NCBI GenBank assembly: GCA_003116975.1
Contig: BGKB01000003.1
Span: forward strand, 186,001-250,000
DNA: 64,000 bases
From: Aurantiochytrium sp. KH105
Taxonomy: Eukaryota > Sar > Bigyra > Thraustochytrida > Thraustochytriidae
Direction: 5' to 3'
The stretch's first letter is position 1; each line of letters begins with the position of its first letter. Below are positions 23,028-49,747 of the stretch, one piece after another. Below the pieces are notes generated by a model. It saw nothing but the letters and a program-made list of their open reading frames with translations, was not told where the DNA came from and made no database searches. Position numbers and translations under genes: made by a program.

Positions 23028-24917
23028 TCAGAAAAAATCCTCGGCGCGCGCGCGCTGCTCACGACGACGAGGCTTTGGAGCAGAATTGAGGATTGTGTTC
23101 TTGCGCGCTGCGGCAAGACCCTGTTTCAGGGTCGATCGCGGCTTCTTCTCAGTCTGTGCACCGCGCTTACCGCTTTTCGTAGTCTCAGGCGTGCTCGTGA
23201 CCTTGAGCAATCCCGCAAGTGGCGCAGTGGCCTTGGATGCGGGTTTCACGGGGGTCGTTTTCAAGCGTTTCATACTCACGCGATGGTCCAGAGATTGAGT
23301 GGATTCCAGAGCGAACCTGATGCGCTTCTTGGCCGAATTCGTCTTGTTGTCCGGCACAGGTGGCAGACCAATGTCTTTCTTCAATGTTGACTTCTTTGTC
23401 TTTGTCTTTTTCTTCTTTGAAGAAGAGGAGGCGTCTGATGAGGTATTTTGTTCGGGCGTGAGAATAACCTCCGCCACTACATTCTTGCCCCGGGCGGGCG
23501 AGGTCATGTCATCCTCGACTTCCAGATCTTCTTTCACCGGCACAGCGGCGTCGCGTTTTGACTTTTTCTTGCTCTGCGGGGTCTCAGGCTTGGAGGTCTT
23601 GACCTTTTTGGATTTCTTGGCACTTGCCGCAGGGGAAGAAGCAACAGCATCAGCATCAGCGTCATCGACAGCCTCGGATGCCGACTGTGTTTTCGCCTCA
23701 CTAGCTTTCGCCTTTTTGGTCGACTTTTTTGAGGATACTGGTGTGAGAGCAGCAGCCTTTTTCTTTGGTGTCGCTCGCGCCTCCTTTTTGGCCTGTTCTA
23801 CTGCGGCCTCTTCTTCTTCGTCGTCGCTTCCGTCTTCTCCCATTTGCTCAAACTCCTGCATGAGGTCGCGATGAGCCTCGTCCGTGTCGACCTCTTCCTC
23901 CTCTTCCTCTTCTTCCTCCTCCTCCTCCTCCTCGTCATCATCGTCCTCAGCTTCAACGTCTTCGGTATCCATGGCGTCAGCATCGTCATCACCCTCGTCG
24001 TAGTCTTCGACCACAAGAGTGTCGCCCACTGCACCGCCAATCTTGCTTCGAAAATCGCTGTACGTGTCATACAGCATGTCACGCTGCGTGTCACTGACAT
24101 CTTCGGCGTCTGCTGCAATCGCAAAGATACTCTGTGCCACCGTCTTGAGGTCCAAATTCGCCATGGGGCGGTCTTCGAGAAGCGGGTCGAAAACCATCTT
24201 GAGCGTGTGGCGGACAACCGCGTCGCTGTCGCAGCAGCCCAGGACACAATAAAAGGGGCTCAAAAGCTCCTGGAGCTCCTCTGCAGCGAGCTTCGAGTCC
24301 GTCTCCGTGGCAAAGACCTCGTCTAAGAAAATATCGGCCATATGAAGGCGCAGTCCGTTGGGTTTGTGCAAAAGAAGGTCGTCACGAAGGACGCAACCCC
24401 AGAGCTCGAGGCACGAGCGCTTTTGCATCCAGACGAGCGTCTCGCGGAAAAAGTAACGCACGAGAGAGTAGAACTTGTCAACGCGCCACTTGTCGAGGCC
24501 CGGCCACTCGCGAAGCATCGTCTTGTAAAAGGCACGAATAAAAATGGCCGTGTTGGCCTTTTTCTTGAAAACGTGCACGAGGGCCGCGAGATCCTCGGCG
24601 AGCTGCTGCTGCACAGCAACCTTGTCCGACATCCAAAGGCAGTAAAAGAGGCCCTTCCAGAGTTTGAGCAGCTCGATATCCTCAAAGGTCCCGGCCGCCT
24701 TTTCGCGTGCCTTGAGCCAAGCCCGCAAGGCCAACAAGGTTTGCTCTCGCTCATCCTTTTTGTTCGACGCGAGCTTTTTCGCAAAGCCAATAACTTCCGT
24801 TGTGCTGGGCACCGACTCTTCTTGCACTTCTTTCGCTTCGCTCTTGGCCTCGGCCTGAGCCTTGACCTGGGCCTTCTTCACCGCCTTGGGCGCGTCCTCC
24901 TCCTTACGCGGCGCCAT
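23028..24917 (-). CDS. RRP1: Ribosomal RNA processing protein 1 (Nop52 family)
   Basis: A 629-residue nucleolar protein for large-subunit pre-rRNA processing (ITS2 and 27S steps in the family). The Nop52 domain spans about 40-300: FAKKLASNKKDEREQTLLAL, ELLKLWKGLFYCLWMSDK, REWPGLDKWRVDKFYSLVRY and PNGLRLHMADIFLDEV all match the conserved blocks. Then comes a long Asp/Glu tract (about 320-390) and a Lys/Ser/Ala/Pro-rich tail typical of nucleolar proteins, ending with KKRIRFALESTQSLDHRVSM, a likely basic docking segment. The longer frame starts outside ATG; the Met at 24917 (MAPRKEED) gives the expected family N-terminus. It is divergent from BMS1, another ribosome-assembly gene. Confidence 0.93.
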   Translation of the reverse strand: MAPRKEEDAPKAVKKAQVKAQAEAKSEAKEVQEESVPSTTEVIGFAKKLASNKKDEREQTLLALRAWLKAREKAAGTFEDIELLKLWKGLFYCLWMSDKVAVQQQLAEDLAALVHVFKKKANTAIFIRAFYKTMLREWPGLDKWRVDKFYSLVRYFFRETLVWMQKRSCLELWGCVLRDDLLLHKPNGLRLHMADIFLDEVFATETDSKLAAEELQELLSPFYCVLGCCDSDAVVRHTLKMVFDPLLEDRPMANLDLKTVAQSIFAIAADAEDVSDTQRDMLYDTYSDFRSKIGGAVGDTLVVEDYDEGDDDADAMDTEDVEAEDDDDEEEEEEEEEEEEEEVDTDEAHRDLMQEFEQMGEDGSDDEEEEAAVEQAKKEARATPKKKAAALTPVSSKKSTKKAKASEAKTQSASEAVDDADADAVASSPAASAKKSKKVKTSKPETPQSKKKSKRDAAVPVKEDLEVEDDMTSPARGKNVVAEVILTPEQNTSSDASSSSKKKKTKTKKSTLKKDIGLPPVPDNKTNSAKKRIRFALESTQSLDHRVSMKRLKTTPVKPASKATAPLAGLLKVTSTPETTKSGKRGAQTEKKPRSTLKQGLAAARKNTILNSAPKPRRREQRARAEDFF

Positions 24918-25650
24918 AGTTTTACTCCTCGAACCACGCGTCGACCGAGCCGGCGACGAGGTACCACACGTCTCGCCGAGAGCTTCGAGGCCTTTCGCGG
25001 CCAGTGCTCTCCTCCCCAATTCACGAGGCCGTCTCCGATCGCGGCCTCGCGCGCTCGCTCGAGCGCGAAGCACGTCGACGCAGACCAAGGCAAACCGATT
25101 CTGCGCAGCGGGACTGGCGCAGCCACTCACCAGCCAACCACCGTTTCGACGTTACGACGTTTCGTCGTTTATGACGGTTTCCCCTTCCTCTCGTGCTCAC
25201 ATTGCGGGCACCCGCGCTTCGAAACGGCTCTGAAAGTGTTGCACGTTTCGTAACGGCTGCGCAACCCTTTCGACGGGTGGCCTTGGGTGGGTGGGTGGAC
25301 TCGAGTCCGTGGGTGGGTGGCGGCAAAGCTCGTTCGGGCCGGGCGAGTGGAACTGGTTCGCGCGGCGACGGCTGCGCGGGCGGGCCTCCGGAGGACCGCG
25401 CGCGGCTCGCGCGGAGACCCGCGCGAGACGTTTGGAGCTGCGCAAGCATCGGCTTGGCGCGGTTAATCCGTCGCGAGACGCAAGAGGGCGCAGGCGACTT
25501 GGACCTGGGACCCGACGACTCTGGCTGAGCAAAGGCCGACCAAAAAAGCAAGCAAAGCGAGCAAAGCAAGCAAAGCAAGCAAGCCCCGAGCAAGGTATTC
25601 TCCATCGTGTCGAGGCTGGCTACGTCTGCTTGAGGTGATTTATAACAACC
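24918..25650. promoter_or_regulatory. Bidirectional promoter region of RRP1 and BMS1
   Basis: Only 733 bases separate the start codons of two ribosome-biogenesis genes. It contains clusters of GGGT repeats on both sides of CTCGAGTC at 25282-25322 (G-quadruplex candidate) and, at 25541-25583 on the BMS1 side, AGCAAGCAAAGC leader repeats. I see no coding gene within it. Confidence 0.6.
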
Positions 25651-38630: not shown

Positions 38631-40644
38631 TTGCGCTGCGCGGCACCAATTGCTTTGATCTTGCATTGACAGTGAGCGCATTGACCGACAGGTGACGTTG
38701 CGACGTTGTCGAACAGACTCCATCTTCAACATTCGACAGGCGAAAGCAACGCAGATACGCTGGCTTGGAATGCAGCAAAATGTCTCAGTCAAACATGGTC
38801 AGATCTCATCAGTAAGACAGACGAGCCAGCACAGCCTGATGGAGGCAAAGCATAACCCTGCGACGTCTCCGCAAATATGAGTTGCGCGCGGCAGGTCAAC
38901 TTGATCAACCGATTTTTAACCTTAAGTTTAAGATAGGTAAAGCTGAACGCTTTCGAAAAGTTAGCCTTTCATTCGAATTGAAGACGCCAGCCGTCCAAGC
39001 GCATGGTGAGTGTAGCGAGTCGATGATTGCTGATGCTTGTTACTGGCAGCCTGGACGGCACGTTTATTAGTGGTCAACGGTGATCACACCTGGCTGAAGG
39101 TGAGTGGGAAAGATGGCAAGCAAGCACATGTAATGCGCAAAGAAGATTTGGGTCAACGACTGTTTGGCTCATCATTGGTCGCGTAGATCCAAAGTCATCA
39201 ATTGCACTCAGGGAGATCCCCCTTCAAATCTAAATTTCTGTTCTTTTCTTTATGCACGTTCATGTTCTTTCTGGTGTGTGAGCAGTAGTATTCGTGGGAA
39301 TCTTATATCCAAGCAAGCAAACCTCGGCCTCGGTTGCTTTGCGTTGCTTTTGCAGGTTTCTGGTCGTCTCATGGAATGAATTGGGCATTGCGCTCTGATC
39401 ATGTGCGCCCGAAACCGCGTGTGGTCGATTATCAACCATATTTGAATTTATTGCTCGCGAGACTTGGCAAGTCTGTATTCTACATATACATATTTCTTGA
39501 CGCGCTGAGAAGGCACACCTTGTTCAGGACGTTCAACACAGATGCGAACGCCTCATCGAGTGCACTACCAAAGAAAGCAACGTATGTGACATGGATTTCA
39601 TCCTCCCCCAGCTACGGAGACAGGTTGGCAAAGCGATACATCATTTGTGAGCGCGAGGCAGCTCGGCGACGGCATACTGACGAGGTCGGTACGCTCTATG
39701 CGGTCCCTCTTCCCATCGACGGAAAATTGGCTGCGCCATTTGCTGCTGCGTGAGGGGCGGATTCTGGCTCTCGCTGAGGGCTTTGCGCATGGCCTCTGCG
39801 AGCGCGGCGGCCCGCGTCTCTTGGCACGTGGAAGGCGGCATCCGCTCGCTCGCTCGTTCGCTCGCTCACTAGCGTGCTTCTTATCTCCCCTTTCTCTCTC
39901 TCTCTCTCTCTGCGCGGAGAAGGCCGGCACAAGCTTGAGCACGCGTCCGAACACGAGCGAAGAGGAGACGAGGAGCGCGCCCCGACCGACCACCAGCTGC
40001 AGATGCTAAGCGCCTTGAGTTGAGGCTTTGCTGTGGTCGCCCGAGGCCATCTGATTGGCCGCACGCGATCCTCGCTGCCAACAGAAGATGCCGCGACCGT
40101 CAGCTGCGACATGCCAGCGAGCAAGCGAGCGGGGACTCTCTCTCTCAGGCGGCGGTTGCTGCCTGGTCGGGACCGTTGAGGCCGTCGGTAGTTGGCCACA
40201 CCCCGCAGTTTTCTCTCTCTGCGGTACCCTATCGAGTATACGCATGTTTTGTTTATCTTGTCTTTTCTGTCAATCAAGAACTCACTCACTCTCACGCGCC
40301 GCGAGCTCGCTGATCTGGATCACGAGCCGGCGCATTCGAGGACCCTGCGCGCAGCCCGTGGCACCCGTCTCTTGCGGTCAGTGTCGGCCGGGCTCCTGCC
40401 GACGCTGGCAGGAGATGCAGACAGCCGTGCTGGCCGGCCGTGCTGGCCGACCCACCTCGTGTCCACCCACGATGACCGGCCATGGCATCTCGACCGAGCG
40501 CGTGTTCTTGACAAAGCAATGGGAGTGTGCATCTGACTAGGCGGTCTGATTAACTCTCGCCGCGGGGCGCCCGCCCCCACTGGCGACGCCTAGCTTGCTC
40601 CCGCTCCCGCTCTCGAGCTTCCTTCTCGAGAAACGGCCGTCCCG

Positions 40645-40701
40645 GCCTGGCATAGCCTGGCATAGCCTGGCGAGGCGAGGCGAGGCGTGGCGTGGCGTGG
40701 C
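40645..40701. repeat. CCTGGCATAG / GCGAGG / GCGTG compound repeat
   Basis: Three consecutive short tandem arrays, each drifting into the next: CCTGGCATAG, then GAGGC, then GTGGC. Confidence 0.8.
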
Positions 40702-41749
40702 CCAAGTCGTTCGGGGAGGCGATGACCTCGCTGGTGCTCAATCCATCGGTGGCATCAGTCACCTGAGCAACACCTAACGGATTGGGCACAGCGATACTTC
40801 AAGTGGACGAACCCTGCGTCTTTTTGCCAAAATGCCAGCACAAGCACAAGCAGCCAGAAGCGAGGCAGCAAGCCGACGACCAATGGCGAGACTTGCTTGC
40901 GTGCAGTGCTTGCCTGATTGCTTGCCCTGCGCCAGTTCGGACTTCTGTGGTGGAGTCTGACCTTGCCGGCTGCAGCCTTGCAGTCGCTCGCCCCGTCGTG
41001 GACAACAGAAAAGACGGAAAGAATGGGGTTCAACGCCTTTCTCTTCGGCGATGAGCTGCAAGGCGTGCTGCAAGGCTTTGCCTCCTTGCTGGAAGGCGGC
41101 TGGAAGAACGAGCTAGCGCACGTTCTGCATCGACGCCAGGCTGCTTGCTATTAGACGCGCGGGTCAACGCGCGTGGTCAGGTCAACGTCCACCAAGACTC
41201 TCTCGCTCTGCCATGGCGGCGAGGCTCTTCTGCACCTCCTCTCATCAATGACTCAAGCTCGACTAGTGGCCGTGATGTAAGCCTGCTTATCTAGTATACG
41301 TTTTCAGAGGCAGCTGGTCGGCTGACATTGACGAAACCTCGAGGCGTGCGTGCGTTTTCCCGCAGCCGGAAGGGAGGGAGTGGGGTGGGGCTACACGCGT
41401 GGTGGAGATCTTTTAGATCTTCCACTTTCTGACATACAAACAACCGCCAACGATGTGACGGTCAGGGGAAGAGGGAAGGTGACCGAGAAACTTGGCTCGG
41501 AAGGCTTGCAGCTCGGCGGCCAGCCTCCTCCCCAGAAGGCAAGAACGCACCTCGTGCACCGTGGGCCGACACTTGCCGGAGCCGGAGGGAGGTGGAGCTC
41601 CGGAACCGGCCGCATGGAGGAAGGGGGAGTTGTAACCCGCTGCTGAAATCTGATTAACAATGCAAAGGAAAACTATGCTGGTTTTACTGACGTAGAGTCT
41701 GATTGAAAGAAAGAACAACAAAGATGATTCGTCTAAACGTAAAAGAAAT

Positions 41750-42677
41750 CTCCCCTCCGCGCGTAGCGCGATGGGGAGGAAGAAGTTGGAGTCTCACGCA
41801 GCTACTCGGAGACTGTAGTTGTTTGCCTAGGTTGCAAGCGAGTCGAACGATTAGGAAGAGTCCGCTTGCAAATGGCCACCCTGGTAGCTGTTAACTCGGA
41901 ACTCGTACTGGGTTCGAGTGCTCGGGTGATTCGGGTCTGCTGGCGGACGAGAGCGCGCGTGTGCGTGGCTTCGTGCAGCTTAGACTATGATTCATGCTGT
42001 GAATAGCATGGTGAGATGAAATGCGTGGGCTTGTGTAAAAGCAGCATTTAAGGTGATGGAGTAATGTGCTGGGCCTTCGTCAAGGCGACATTATCCAGCA
42101 ATGCGCTGGGCCTTCGTCAAGGACGGCATTGCCTCACTGACGGAATGATACGCGGGCCTCGTTAAGGCGGTATCATTGCAGTGGGTGCGATCTTGGATCG
42201 CACGCGGAATGAGTGCGGCTTTCCCATGGTGTGCACACTGGGTGTCCACACTGGGTGTGCACTTTGGATCTGCTTGTGCGTGGATGCTATAGCAGTTTAC
42301 CACCTGGCGTCAAGGTGATGGGTAGCTCATCGTGACGAGCATCGTCGATTATGGTTCGTTTTTCGTCCCTGTCGAGGCATAAGCCTAGGGCTCAAGAGTA
42401 GTGCCCAGTAGCTTTCCTCATGGCGAGCGAATTGATAAGTATGAATGCAGGCCCAGCGAGGCCTCGTGCACTAGTTCAATAGTGTCTTCTACGAAAGATC
42501 GCTTTATGCGTGGAGCAAGAGAATAAAAAAGCTGCGCTTCGTTTTTCTTTCTGTTGTTCGAGACTTGTATTACTCATGCAACAGAGACGGCGCATCGCGA
42601 CAAAAAGTGCGCGTTCCCACCCAGAGTCAGATCCCTGATTCTAGTTTTTATGAAAAAGAACTAGTTGAGATAGTTCT
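41750..42677. other. Dense stem-loop array, possible structured RNA or hairpin repeat element
   Basis: About a dozen perfect or near-perfect inverted repeats in 930 bases, with no coding frame. Examples: CTCCCC 41750-41755 with GGGGAG 41773-41778, enclosing GCGC-GTA-GCGC; TTGCAAGCG 41832-41840 with its complement 41863-41871; CATGCT/AGCATG 41993-42010; units A, B, C at 42062-42093, 42098-42132 and 42144-42177 sharing the inner GGCCT...AAGGC stem; GTGCGATC/GATCGCAC 42185-42203; GTGCACAC/GTGTGCAC 42231-42262; CACCT/AGGTG 42301-42317; CACTA/TAGTG 42469-42484; AGAACTA/TAGTTCT 42657-42677. Nearest homologues unknown; strand of any transcript unknown. Confidence 0.6.
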
Positions 42678-42803
42678 GAGCAACTCGGTCGAGTCATATT
42701 GACAGGTTTCAGACTCGCGCACGCCGAATGCACGACGTATGCTTGCCGCGGCAAAGTGAGCTGCACGTTTTGCAAAATTTGCCATTAGTCGATTTCATGC
42801 ATA

Positions 42804-43085
42804 TTACGGGAAACGACGCTGTCCGCTGTTTGGCGTACGCTCGTTTGTTGTTGCTGCAGCCATTGAGGGCGTCCAAGCGGGAAGCTCGGGCATGGTGTAA
42901 AGCCGCTCGCGATAAAGGTGTTGACCTGCTCTTCGAATCACATTTAGTGGAACCTCGTTGTCGGCAGCTGGGTTCTCCAAGGTCAACGCCAAGGACGTCA
43001 TGATGCTCTGGATCTGCGCTTCCGAGATCTGCACAAGGCCGGAGCCTGCATTGCCGTTCGTCGTGGACGTAGACTCGCTCGGCAT
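42804..43085 (-). CDS. Weak candidate coding fragment in the gene desert
   Basis: A 93-codon frame from the ATG at 43085 with protein-like composition (ISEAQIQSIMTSLALTLENP, NVIRRAGQHLYRERLYTMPE). The same frame is open upstream to about 43271 without an ATG. A TGA two codons further up, and CTGTCTTGGCTAG at 43264-43276 (acceptor-like), hint at an internal exon, but I could not find an upstream exon in a matching phase. The opposite strand is also open here, so even the strand is not certain. Could be a gene remnant. Confidence 0.25.
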   Translation of the reverse strand: MPSESTSTTNGNAGSGLVQISEAQIQSIMTSLALTLENPAADNEVPLNVIRRAGQHLYRERLYTMPELPAWTPSMAAATTNERTPNSGQRRFP

Positions 43086-45440
43086 GATGGGCGACGACAG
43101 CGTGCTGCGTATTTCCGATTTGCGAGTGTCTGAAAGCCAGTCTTTGCAATCTAGCTTGTCCCTGGGCCTTCGTTGCTGGCTCGCTCTAAACAGAGGGGCT
43201 GTCTCTGGGTCAAGGGGAGGAGGGGGTTCAAAATCGCCACCATACCGCAGCGACTCTAAACGTCTAGCCAAGACAGATCAGTTTTTAGAATTAATTTTAA
43301 AATCCCAAGATCTCGCTGCCTTTGAGGACTTTACAACTCAATCGCACCTTGTTTTGTTTCGAAATAAAAAAGCCACGTGAAGCCATGCGCCAAGACTTTT
43401 CTATTAGACAGTAGTTTCATCGGTAAAACCGCTCGCGCAGATGGGGCTTCCTGCGGGAGAAGCCATCGCTGCAAACCAGCTACCCTGAGGCCTTTCGTGG
43501 TCCAGCCATGTGCACGTTGCAAAGTGTCCTTGGCATGCCAAGCTCTTCTTCTCGCCAGATTAAACCGTTCGCAGCCATGTTTACGTTGCAGAAAAACGGG
43601 TCCATGAATTTAGCGCAGCAAAAAGAAGATATCAACGCACGGGCGAGTCCCGTCGAGGTTTTCCTTTACCGCAGCGCCCCGAGCAGGTCCACAGCTCCCC
43701 CGAACCGCTGCATTTCCTGCTTCCGTTTCAGATCCACCCACCCATCGCGTGCTGGTGTTGACTCGAAACGCTGCAATCGGTCGACTCGCCATTGCTTACG
43801 CTACTCACTCGTGTCGGCGCCGACTCGGGAACGTAGTAAGGCTTCTCTCTCCAGCCACGCGATCGCTCGCTTACGATGCGCCAGCACATCGAGACCCGCT
43901 GCGCTTGGCCTGGCGGCGAGAACGCGTACCGTCTCGGATGTTATTCGTTGTCGCAGATGCAAGAGAGCGAGCAAACGAACTGCCTCCAGCACGCGCGATG
44001 CGAAGCAAGAAAGCAAGGTGTGGGCAGAATCGCAAGCCCTTGCACCACAGCCGCCCGCTCCCCACCTATTCGACCTTTCAGTTGCCCGACAATCTGGGAG
44101 GTCCACAATCCGATGAAAACTAACAGGTTCCTACTGGCTGTGGATCTATACTGCCAAGGCTTCTTACCAGGCCTATCCCCCAGCGGCTGTGGGCGTAGGT
44201 CTACCGGTTGAAGGGGAGCCGGCGACGCGAACGCGGCCACCGCCCCGGTGCAGCGAGGGGAAAGGCATCGCTAGGCGCTGGCCGCCGGCCGCATGAGCGC
44301 GCGCTGAGGCAGCTTGCTGGACCTTTGCGGCAGCGTTCCCTCGCTTCTGTAACCGCCAGGGCTGTGCACTGCAGGCTTGAAGATCGCCGCACGCTTTGCA
44401 GGCCTGTGCAACGATGTTATGTATGTGCAGCCGACGTCAACGGTCGGCTGGCTGGCGGGGCGGTTTGAGCACCCGCTTCGTTCATGTTCATAAGTCGATC
44501 GCAGCTCACTTCGCTGGCATACGGATGAGCCGCTCGCTCACGCATTCCACCGACCCATCAACCGACCAACCGGGGCTTCTCAGGTAGTCCCGGCGTGAGC
44601 ACGCGTCGCGACTCAACTCGTAGCAGCAGAGAGTACTGGACATAAGGAACTAACTCGCTGCTTGCCATGCATGCCCCGCGCGAGCTGAAAACCTATGCCG
44701 AAACTGCTCGACGCGGCTTGACCCCACATAGAAACCGGAGCCTGGAGCGCCGTTCGAGCGAGCGGACGGGAGACAGGCACACAGTCAGGCCCTTCCTTCG
44801 GGCCTTCTACCTTTTGGCCAAGATCAACGGTTTGGCCTGGGGCCTCTCGAGGCCTGGCCTCTTGCACCTAGCCTCTGCAGAGCCGACGCTCTCAACCTCT
44901 GCGCTTTCGTTTGCTTCATCATTTTTCGGCATCGCCCCCCCACTCCCAAACAAAATCATCCATGTGAATGCCTGCTCCGTCCCAGAGTCCTGAGAAAATC
45001 TTGCACACACTCACAAATGGACACGCGTGGGTGGGCGCCGCCACTGGCGCGAGGGAATGTAAAAGTGCGCTAGGAGCCGCCAGTGATCGACGTGAGTTAG
45101 GGTAGAACAAAAGGCCAAGGACGGCTCGCGACGACTGCCCGGCCTGCCAGCCACCATGCAGCCTGCGAAGCCCCCCTTTCGCCTTACTAGAATTGCACGA
45201 CTGGAAGGCGAGGTGTGTGTTGGAGAGACAGGAAAGACAGGCAAAGTGAGTGGCCTGTCTATCGAAAGGCGAAAGACCTGGCTGTGGCTCGGCCTCGCGG
45301 CGGTTGGACGCGCGTGCCGGCCTGGCGCGTTGGAAAGATCGACTCACAGTCAATGCGACGCGACGCGAAGCAATGCAACGCGATGCAGAGGGGGCGATCG
45401 CTCGAAACGGCATGCTGGCTGACTTCAAAGCAGCAGCATG

Positions 45441-49042: not shown

Positions 49043-49226
49043 GAGCTGGCCTGCGGGAGCAGCTGGCCTGCGGGAGCAGCTGGCCTGCGGGAGCAGCTGG
49101 CCTGCGGAAGCAGCTTGCTATTGCGCTTTGCTCGTCCCGATCATAGAGGAGCTGGTCTGCGGGAGCAGCCGGTCCGCGGGCGCAGCTGGTCTGCAGGAGC
49201 AGCTGGCCTGCGGGAGCAGCTTGCTG
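49043..49226. repeat. 15-base minisatellite in two higher-order copies
   Basis: Units like GAGCTGGCCTGCGGG are repeated four times, followed by an AGCAGCTTGCT...TTTGCTC segment; the whole block then repeats with changes (49147-49258). Confidence 0.85.
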
Positions 49227-49747
49227 TTTGCGCTTTGCTCATCCGATCAGAGGCGGTCCTCTCCCTTCTCCCCCCAACAAGACCAGGATCGAAACGGACA
49301 CGCGCATCACACTTGAACTGGCAACTTTCGGGGTTTCTATGTGCTCCCACTACTCTACCCAGGGGAGGTCATTTTGCGGTTAAAACCAAGACCGTCTGTG
49401 TCCACCTTTGCGAATTTCTCCCACGGACAAGGCTTTCCATATTGTCGCCCCACGCGATGCGCTCTCCGATGCATGAGTTACACCTCGCTTGCCCCTCCCT
49501 CCTGCGTTCTTACTTTCATTGCACCGGCCGGCAGAGCCACGCACGCCACGAGGCTCCTTCACACGCACAAAGACATGCCAAATCAACCCTTGAACGCGGC
49601 TGACGATCAATCAACTAGACGTCAGTTCTGGTCTCGGAATTCCGGGAGCCTTGTCTCGAGTCCCGGAAACCCGAAACGTGGCACGTACATCACTAGTACT
49701 TGAACGCACGGACCGCCGAGGAGGGCGCGCGTGCGCGCGCGCGCACG

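Follow-up and report, generated by a model that had tools for sequence, protein, structure and literature searches.

Transib and Ginger are superfamilies of DNA transposons with target-site duplications of 4-5 bp and termini of the form CAC... and TGT..., respectively, and duplications of 5 bp are also common in LTR elements. SINEs carry a Pol III head (tRNA, 7SL or 5S) together with duplications of variable length, and for Helitrons no target-site duplication is expected. The locus described here shares with MITEs its shortness, its non-coding nature, a duplication of fixed length, dispersed copies, an empty site and forms that have lost interior sequence but retain both ends, but it differs from them in that its inverted repeats are imperfect and only about 9-10 bp long, its ends are asymmetric and its interior holds tandem hairpins. 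With Transib and Ginger it has the duplication length in common, whereas its termini are unlike CAC... or TGT... and no transposase is linked to its ends. Its length of several hundred base pairs and its 5-bp duplication resemble those of a solo LTR, from which it is set apart by the lack of TG...CA ends, by the absence of a two-repeat element among the matches listed and by very short derivatives that carry duplications. The 5-bp duplications also separate it from Helitrons, and their constant length, together with the lack of a Pol III head, separates it from SINEs. LTR and DNA transposons of thraustochytrids have been treated in a paper whose main text uses the term 'mite' 0 times (PMC12258536), and no description of a family like the present one was found in the literature searched (titles and beginnings of abstracts).

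The DNA analysed (the window, a stretch of 64 kb) had been given a preliminary description as holding, at 41750-42677, about a dozen perfect stem-loops that suggested a structured RNA, a hairpin-rich mobile element or a binding array. All twelve stretches do contain inverted repeats as described, but the true unit is a different one: a 668-bp insertion at 41684-42351 encloses nine of the twelve, and the other three (starting at 42446, 42469 and 42657) lie outside it in flanking DNA. This hairpin-filled segment is very probably one copy of a non-autonomous, MITE-like family of DNA transposons. The stem-loops are real, but they form no independent array, and among the three proposals it is the mobile element that is borne out, by dispersed copies, by an empty site and by target duplications of a constant 5 bp. 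The family is new and its kind is familiar: a small, gene-less mobile DNA element with dozens of related copies genome-wide.

The borders of the element are common to its dispersed copies (positions are given on the + strand, which is the alignment strand and not a direction of transcription). In the window it is flanked by a perfect 5-bp target-site duplication, TGGTT, at 41679-41683 and 42352-42356, and a paralogue of the insertion locus on contig C19 has TGGTT once and no insertion. The left flanking region is a segmental duplication with C19:298294-301034, matching at 86% over window positions 39000-41401 and at 80% over 41407-41655, and C19 also matches the right flank over two short stretches, 42352-42383 and 42417-42450. 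About 20 bases directly to the left of the duplication are different on C19 as well, which leaves the empty site clean only from the duplication rightwards.

No coding frame explains the stem-loops, as had been stated: among open reading frames of 60 aa or more, those wholly inside 41684-42351 do not exceed 70 aa. ARAGORN found no tRNA in the window, and Rfam gave no match, neither in the 64-kb window at gathering score nor in 41600-42750 at E<=1. Elsewhere in the window, the protein encoded at 23031-25151 on the - strand is Nop52-like; its nearest organism-named relative comes from Thraustochytrium sp. LLF1b (taxid 1112570; 39% of the query aligned at 44% identity) and ranks after two unnamed clusters and a third named by function only. 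Judging from sequence, the host is probably a thraustochytrid relative. At 49043-49249, the window also holds a 106-bp tandem unit in two copies, built from 17-bp repeats.

The window's own genome (76.0 Mb in 367 contigs) was searched with two overlapping queries. The query 41700-42700 matched at least 48 places including the window, a lower bound since 40 of 76 candidates were scored. Of the 47 non-window matches listed, 28 end at window positions 42346-42351, one ends at 42363, 18 end earlier and none beyond. The query 39000-41760 gave 42 matches. Besides the window itself, they comprise the C19 paralogue in two pieces, two matches of low complexity and 37 starts of the element, the last located at 41681-41690 (31 cases), at 41674 (one) and at 41696-41717 (five). 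Two exact patterns searched in viral contigs gave 0 matches each.

Pairing 5' and 3' ends by pattern in the fetched loci (L013-L068) and the window yielded 33 pairs. At the exact borders (offset (0,0)), a perfect 5-bp duplication was present in 16 of the 33; other offsets on the same diagonal gave 5, 3, 2, 1, 1 and 1 duplications, and two other cells gave 1 each. The remaining 17 lack a perfect duplication, three of them differing by one base, and four of the 33 pairs (L062 at 473, L063 and two in L068) were judged false, their 5' pattern falling on unrelated sequence. Several copies have internal deletions with the 5' end retained, and three short ones keep both ends and a perfect duplication without the tandem hairpins: L053 (49 bp, CAAGC), L061 (128 bp, TCGTG) and L035 (176 bp, TCTTC). 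These either moved in their short form or lost their interior after insertion. Five further loci (L059, L063, L065, L066 and L067) have only the last ~19-75 bases of the 3' end, with no 5' end recognisable by eye, and hairpin H2 of the C17 copy (L020) is interrupted by ~23 bases from the element's own 3' end, in reverse orientation (C17:949718-949736). Simple cut-and-paste does not account for these 3'-end-only loci or for the reversed piece. Copies or fragments are clustered within ~0.4-2.4 kb in L037 (C101), L039 (C5), L040 (C92) and L032 (C263), those on C5 and C263 having both orientations, which would suit a tendency of the family to land in or near itself. Locus L068 (C68:255700-256750) contains tandem duplicated stretches ~200 bp apart, each with a very short form of the element's 3' end, four in total.

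The consensus ends of the family are short, imperfect inverted repeats, TTATTGACG ... CGTCGATTA, and the majority consensus of the aligned copies starts with TTATTGACGCAAAGTC and finishes with CATCGTGACGGGCATCGTCGATTA. The 5' terminus (41684-41692) reads TTACTGACG in the window copy against the majority consensus TTATTGACG, which 14 of the 33 end-paired copies carry without change; within one mismatch, the 5' end occurs at 35 genomic places. The outermost nine bases, TTATTGACG and TAATCGACG, form an inverted repeat at seven of nine positions, and the terminal inverted repeats extend over ~9-10 bp and are imperfect, so the inverted-repeat character of a MITE is only weakly developed in this family. 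The two ends are asymmetric: on the 3' side, ~30 bp are retained in the shortest copies (the 3' terminus, 42322-42351, ending CATCGTGACGAGCATCGTCGATTA), and the last 19 bases, with up to two mismatches, have 72 genomic matches versus 0 for the reversed control.

From left to right on the + strand, the element holds H0 (41750-41778), two stacked stems around a symmetric internal loop, as originally described, with 95% of cells paired across the aligned copies; HA (41832-41871), a stem of nine pairs, one of which occurs only in the window copy and is unpaired in 27 of 28 rows; and the stem-loop HB (41993-42010). Four tandem units of one design (outer stem, asymmetric internal loop, inner stem) follow: H1 (42019-42049), which was absent from the earlier list, H2 (42062-42093), H3 (42098-42132) and H4 (42144-42177), one window-copy outer pair of H4 being unpaired in 25 of 30 rows. 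Further on come H5 (42185-42203), H6 (42231-42262), a stem-loop formed from 13-bp direct repeats whose outer stem has letters in eight of 31 aligned rows, and, near the 3' end, the stem-loop H7 (42301-42317). The word 'perfect' fits H5, with its 8-bp stem, but not H2, H3 and H4 with their asymmetric internal loops, nor the hairpin at 42469-42484, which is weak (-3.5 kcal/mol). H2 is 92% identical to H3 over 26 nt, and a 37-bp stretch running from H2 into H3, one unit's length, is missing in three aligned copies (L023:4556, L028 and L029). For H2, the inner pairing of the minimum-energy fold differs from the one used here. In the window copy, any two of the units H1-H4 differ at between one and three of the six pairs of the outer stem, and every pair is still Watson-Crick; all 14 differences in the six unit comparisons are two-sided, which follows from full pairing and is no separate result, and the pairing register of H3 and H4 in these comparisons was our choice.

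The excess of stems and the folding energies by region indicate that the nine enclosed hairpins belong to one structure-rich unit. In 41684-42351, five 7-bp stems with loops of 3-25 nt were counted, whereas dinucleotide shuffles gave 0.70 +/- 0.72 and none of the 200 reached 5. When the 64 kb were scanned in 190 overlapping windows of 668 bp, only two, both overlapping the element, reached five such stems. With loops of 3-8 nt there was no clear excess, either for 7-bp stems (one observed, reached by 28 of 200 shuffles) or for 6-bp stems (two observed, reached by 32 of 200). RNA folding z-scores (60 shuffles for each) were -2.4 on the + strand and -5.5 on the - strand of the element, as against -1.1 on both strands of 42356-42690, -1.3/-1.4 for 41000-41680 and +0.5/+0.4 for 42700-43300; the hairpins of the element do fold better than shuffled sequence. 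In an alignment of 31 fetched copies, from which short and strongly rearranged copies were left out, 90.0% of cells are paired versus 89.2 in shuffles, the structure having been taken from the window copy, which gives it an advantage over slid controls. Changes on both sides were found for 13 pairs versus 7.4 in shuffles (1 of 500 reaches 13) and for 31 cells versus 14.9 (0 of 500 reach 31), an excess that related sequences may show without any structure. A structured non-coding RNA gene family with the hairpins as its functional part would be consistent with the folding, with these two-sided changes and with the diverged tandem units, each still paired in the window copy. We nevertheless regard it as the least probable of the readings considered: there is no Rfam match, stem columns are not more conserved than the others (0.883 versus 0.891 over 41750-42203), further standard pair types show no excess (50 versus 51.9, with 472 of 500 shuffles at least as high), units are lost in some copies, and some pairs of the window copy are mostly unpaired elsewhere, as one each in H4 and HA. 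In our reading, pairing was maintained during the origin of the units in the ancestral element, and the genomic copies now decay without detectable constraint.

A solo LTR or LTR-only remnant of a retrotransposon would make the 668-bp segment a repeat left by recombination, with a 5-bp duplication of the integrase type. The length of the duplication fits LTR elements, the genome has four integrase-core (rve) matches, and same-orientation copies or fragments lie 0.4-2.4 kb apart on C5, C92 and C101. Such an origin is nonetheless very unlikely: among the matches listed, no pair surrounds a multi-kb internal region except one on C34, whose members, 12.5 kb apart in the same orientation, each have their own perfect duplication (CAGTG and GACTG); the consensus ends are TT...TA and not TG...CA; the 49-bp L053 with its perfect duplication is hard to derive from an LTR; and just four rve matches stand against dozens of copies. 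Even less probable is a SINE-like short retrotransposon, inserted by target-primed reverse transcription and leaving 3'-end-only copies by 5' truncation. The 3' terminus alone at several loci and the reversed 3'-end bases inside H2 of L020 are in line with it, but it has to contend with a 5-bp duplication at fixed borders in 16 of the 33 pairs, with the 5' end retained in several internally deleted copies, with copies in which inspection revealed no simple-repeat or A-rich tail, and with the absence of any tRNA (ARAGORN) or Rfam family in the window. There is, finally, a small chance that the family belongs to a eukaryotic DNA transposon group so far undescribed, marked by asymmetric TTATTGACG/CGTCGATTA ends and duplications of 5 bp. 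The tandem hairpins, paired despite their divergence, would then be kept because they are read as folded single strands by the transposase or by a replication intermediate, and the 3'-end-only copies would come from one-ended events.

For the preferred reading, a non-autonomous MITE-like transposon, we infer that a transposase encoded elsewhere acts in trans, recognising the short terminal inverted repeats and the ~30-bp 3' subterminal stretch, and that it would move the element by cutting with a stagger of 5 bp. Most likely, the array of hairpins is interior cargo, grown and shrunk by duplication and loss of units. It is probably dispensable for mobility, because the stems are no better conserved than their surroundings and short copies without the array carry perfect target duplications; given these short copies, it would be at most an accessory protein-binding site, and the tandem units may serve as a binding array.

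No autonomous partner was found among the 31 of 35 5'-end places that were read at least partly, the four others being C19:554196, C58, C185 and C204:111859. At C82:212687, C17:209177, C121 and C8:20477, only the terminal bases match and ~1 kb was read, so a long element starting there is possible. The genome's four rve matches and eleven MULE transposase matches are none of them linked to these ends. Several candidates were discarded. Those on C247, C53, C29 and C15, which appeared one-ended, are in fact internally deleted or rearranged copies, and the 5' ends on C91 and C94 belong to short derivatives, with one like that of C94 visible in 101 bases at C82:228860-228960. On C42, two inverted 3' ends ~5.6 kb apart enclose an unrelated frame that is hydrolase-like by eye, and the two ends give the impression of separate fragments. 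On C253 the element gives way to an unrelated reading frame with no Pfam match at E<=1; this frame (L042:437-901 and L069:1-258) also occurs at C211:67836-68306 and by eye has a possible membrane stretch. An alternative 3' tail common to C95, C98 and C367 seems to belong to a dispersed host sequence, because a match on C123 continues past the tail into the C98 flank.

What looked like a regulatory hairpin array is, on this account, a single mobile-element insertion with exact borders and an empty site. These borders matter for the annotation of this and related genomes, and the family offers a countable set of copies in which gain and loss of units, internal deletion and one-ended fragments can be traced. 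An autonomous partner, if found, would place these unusual ends in the classification of transposons.
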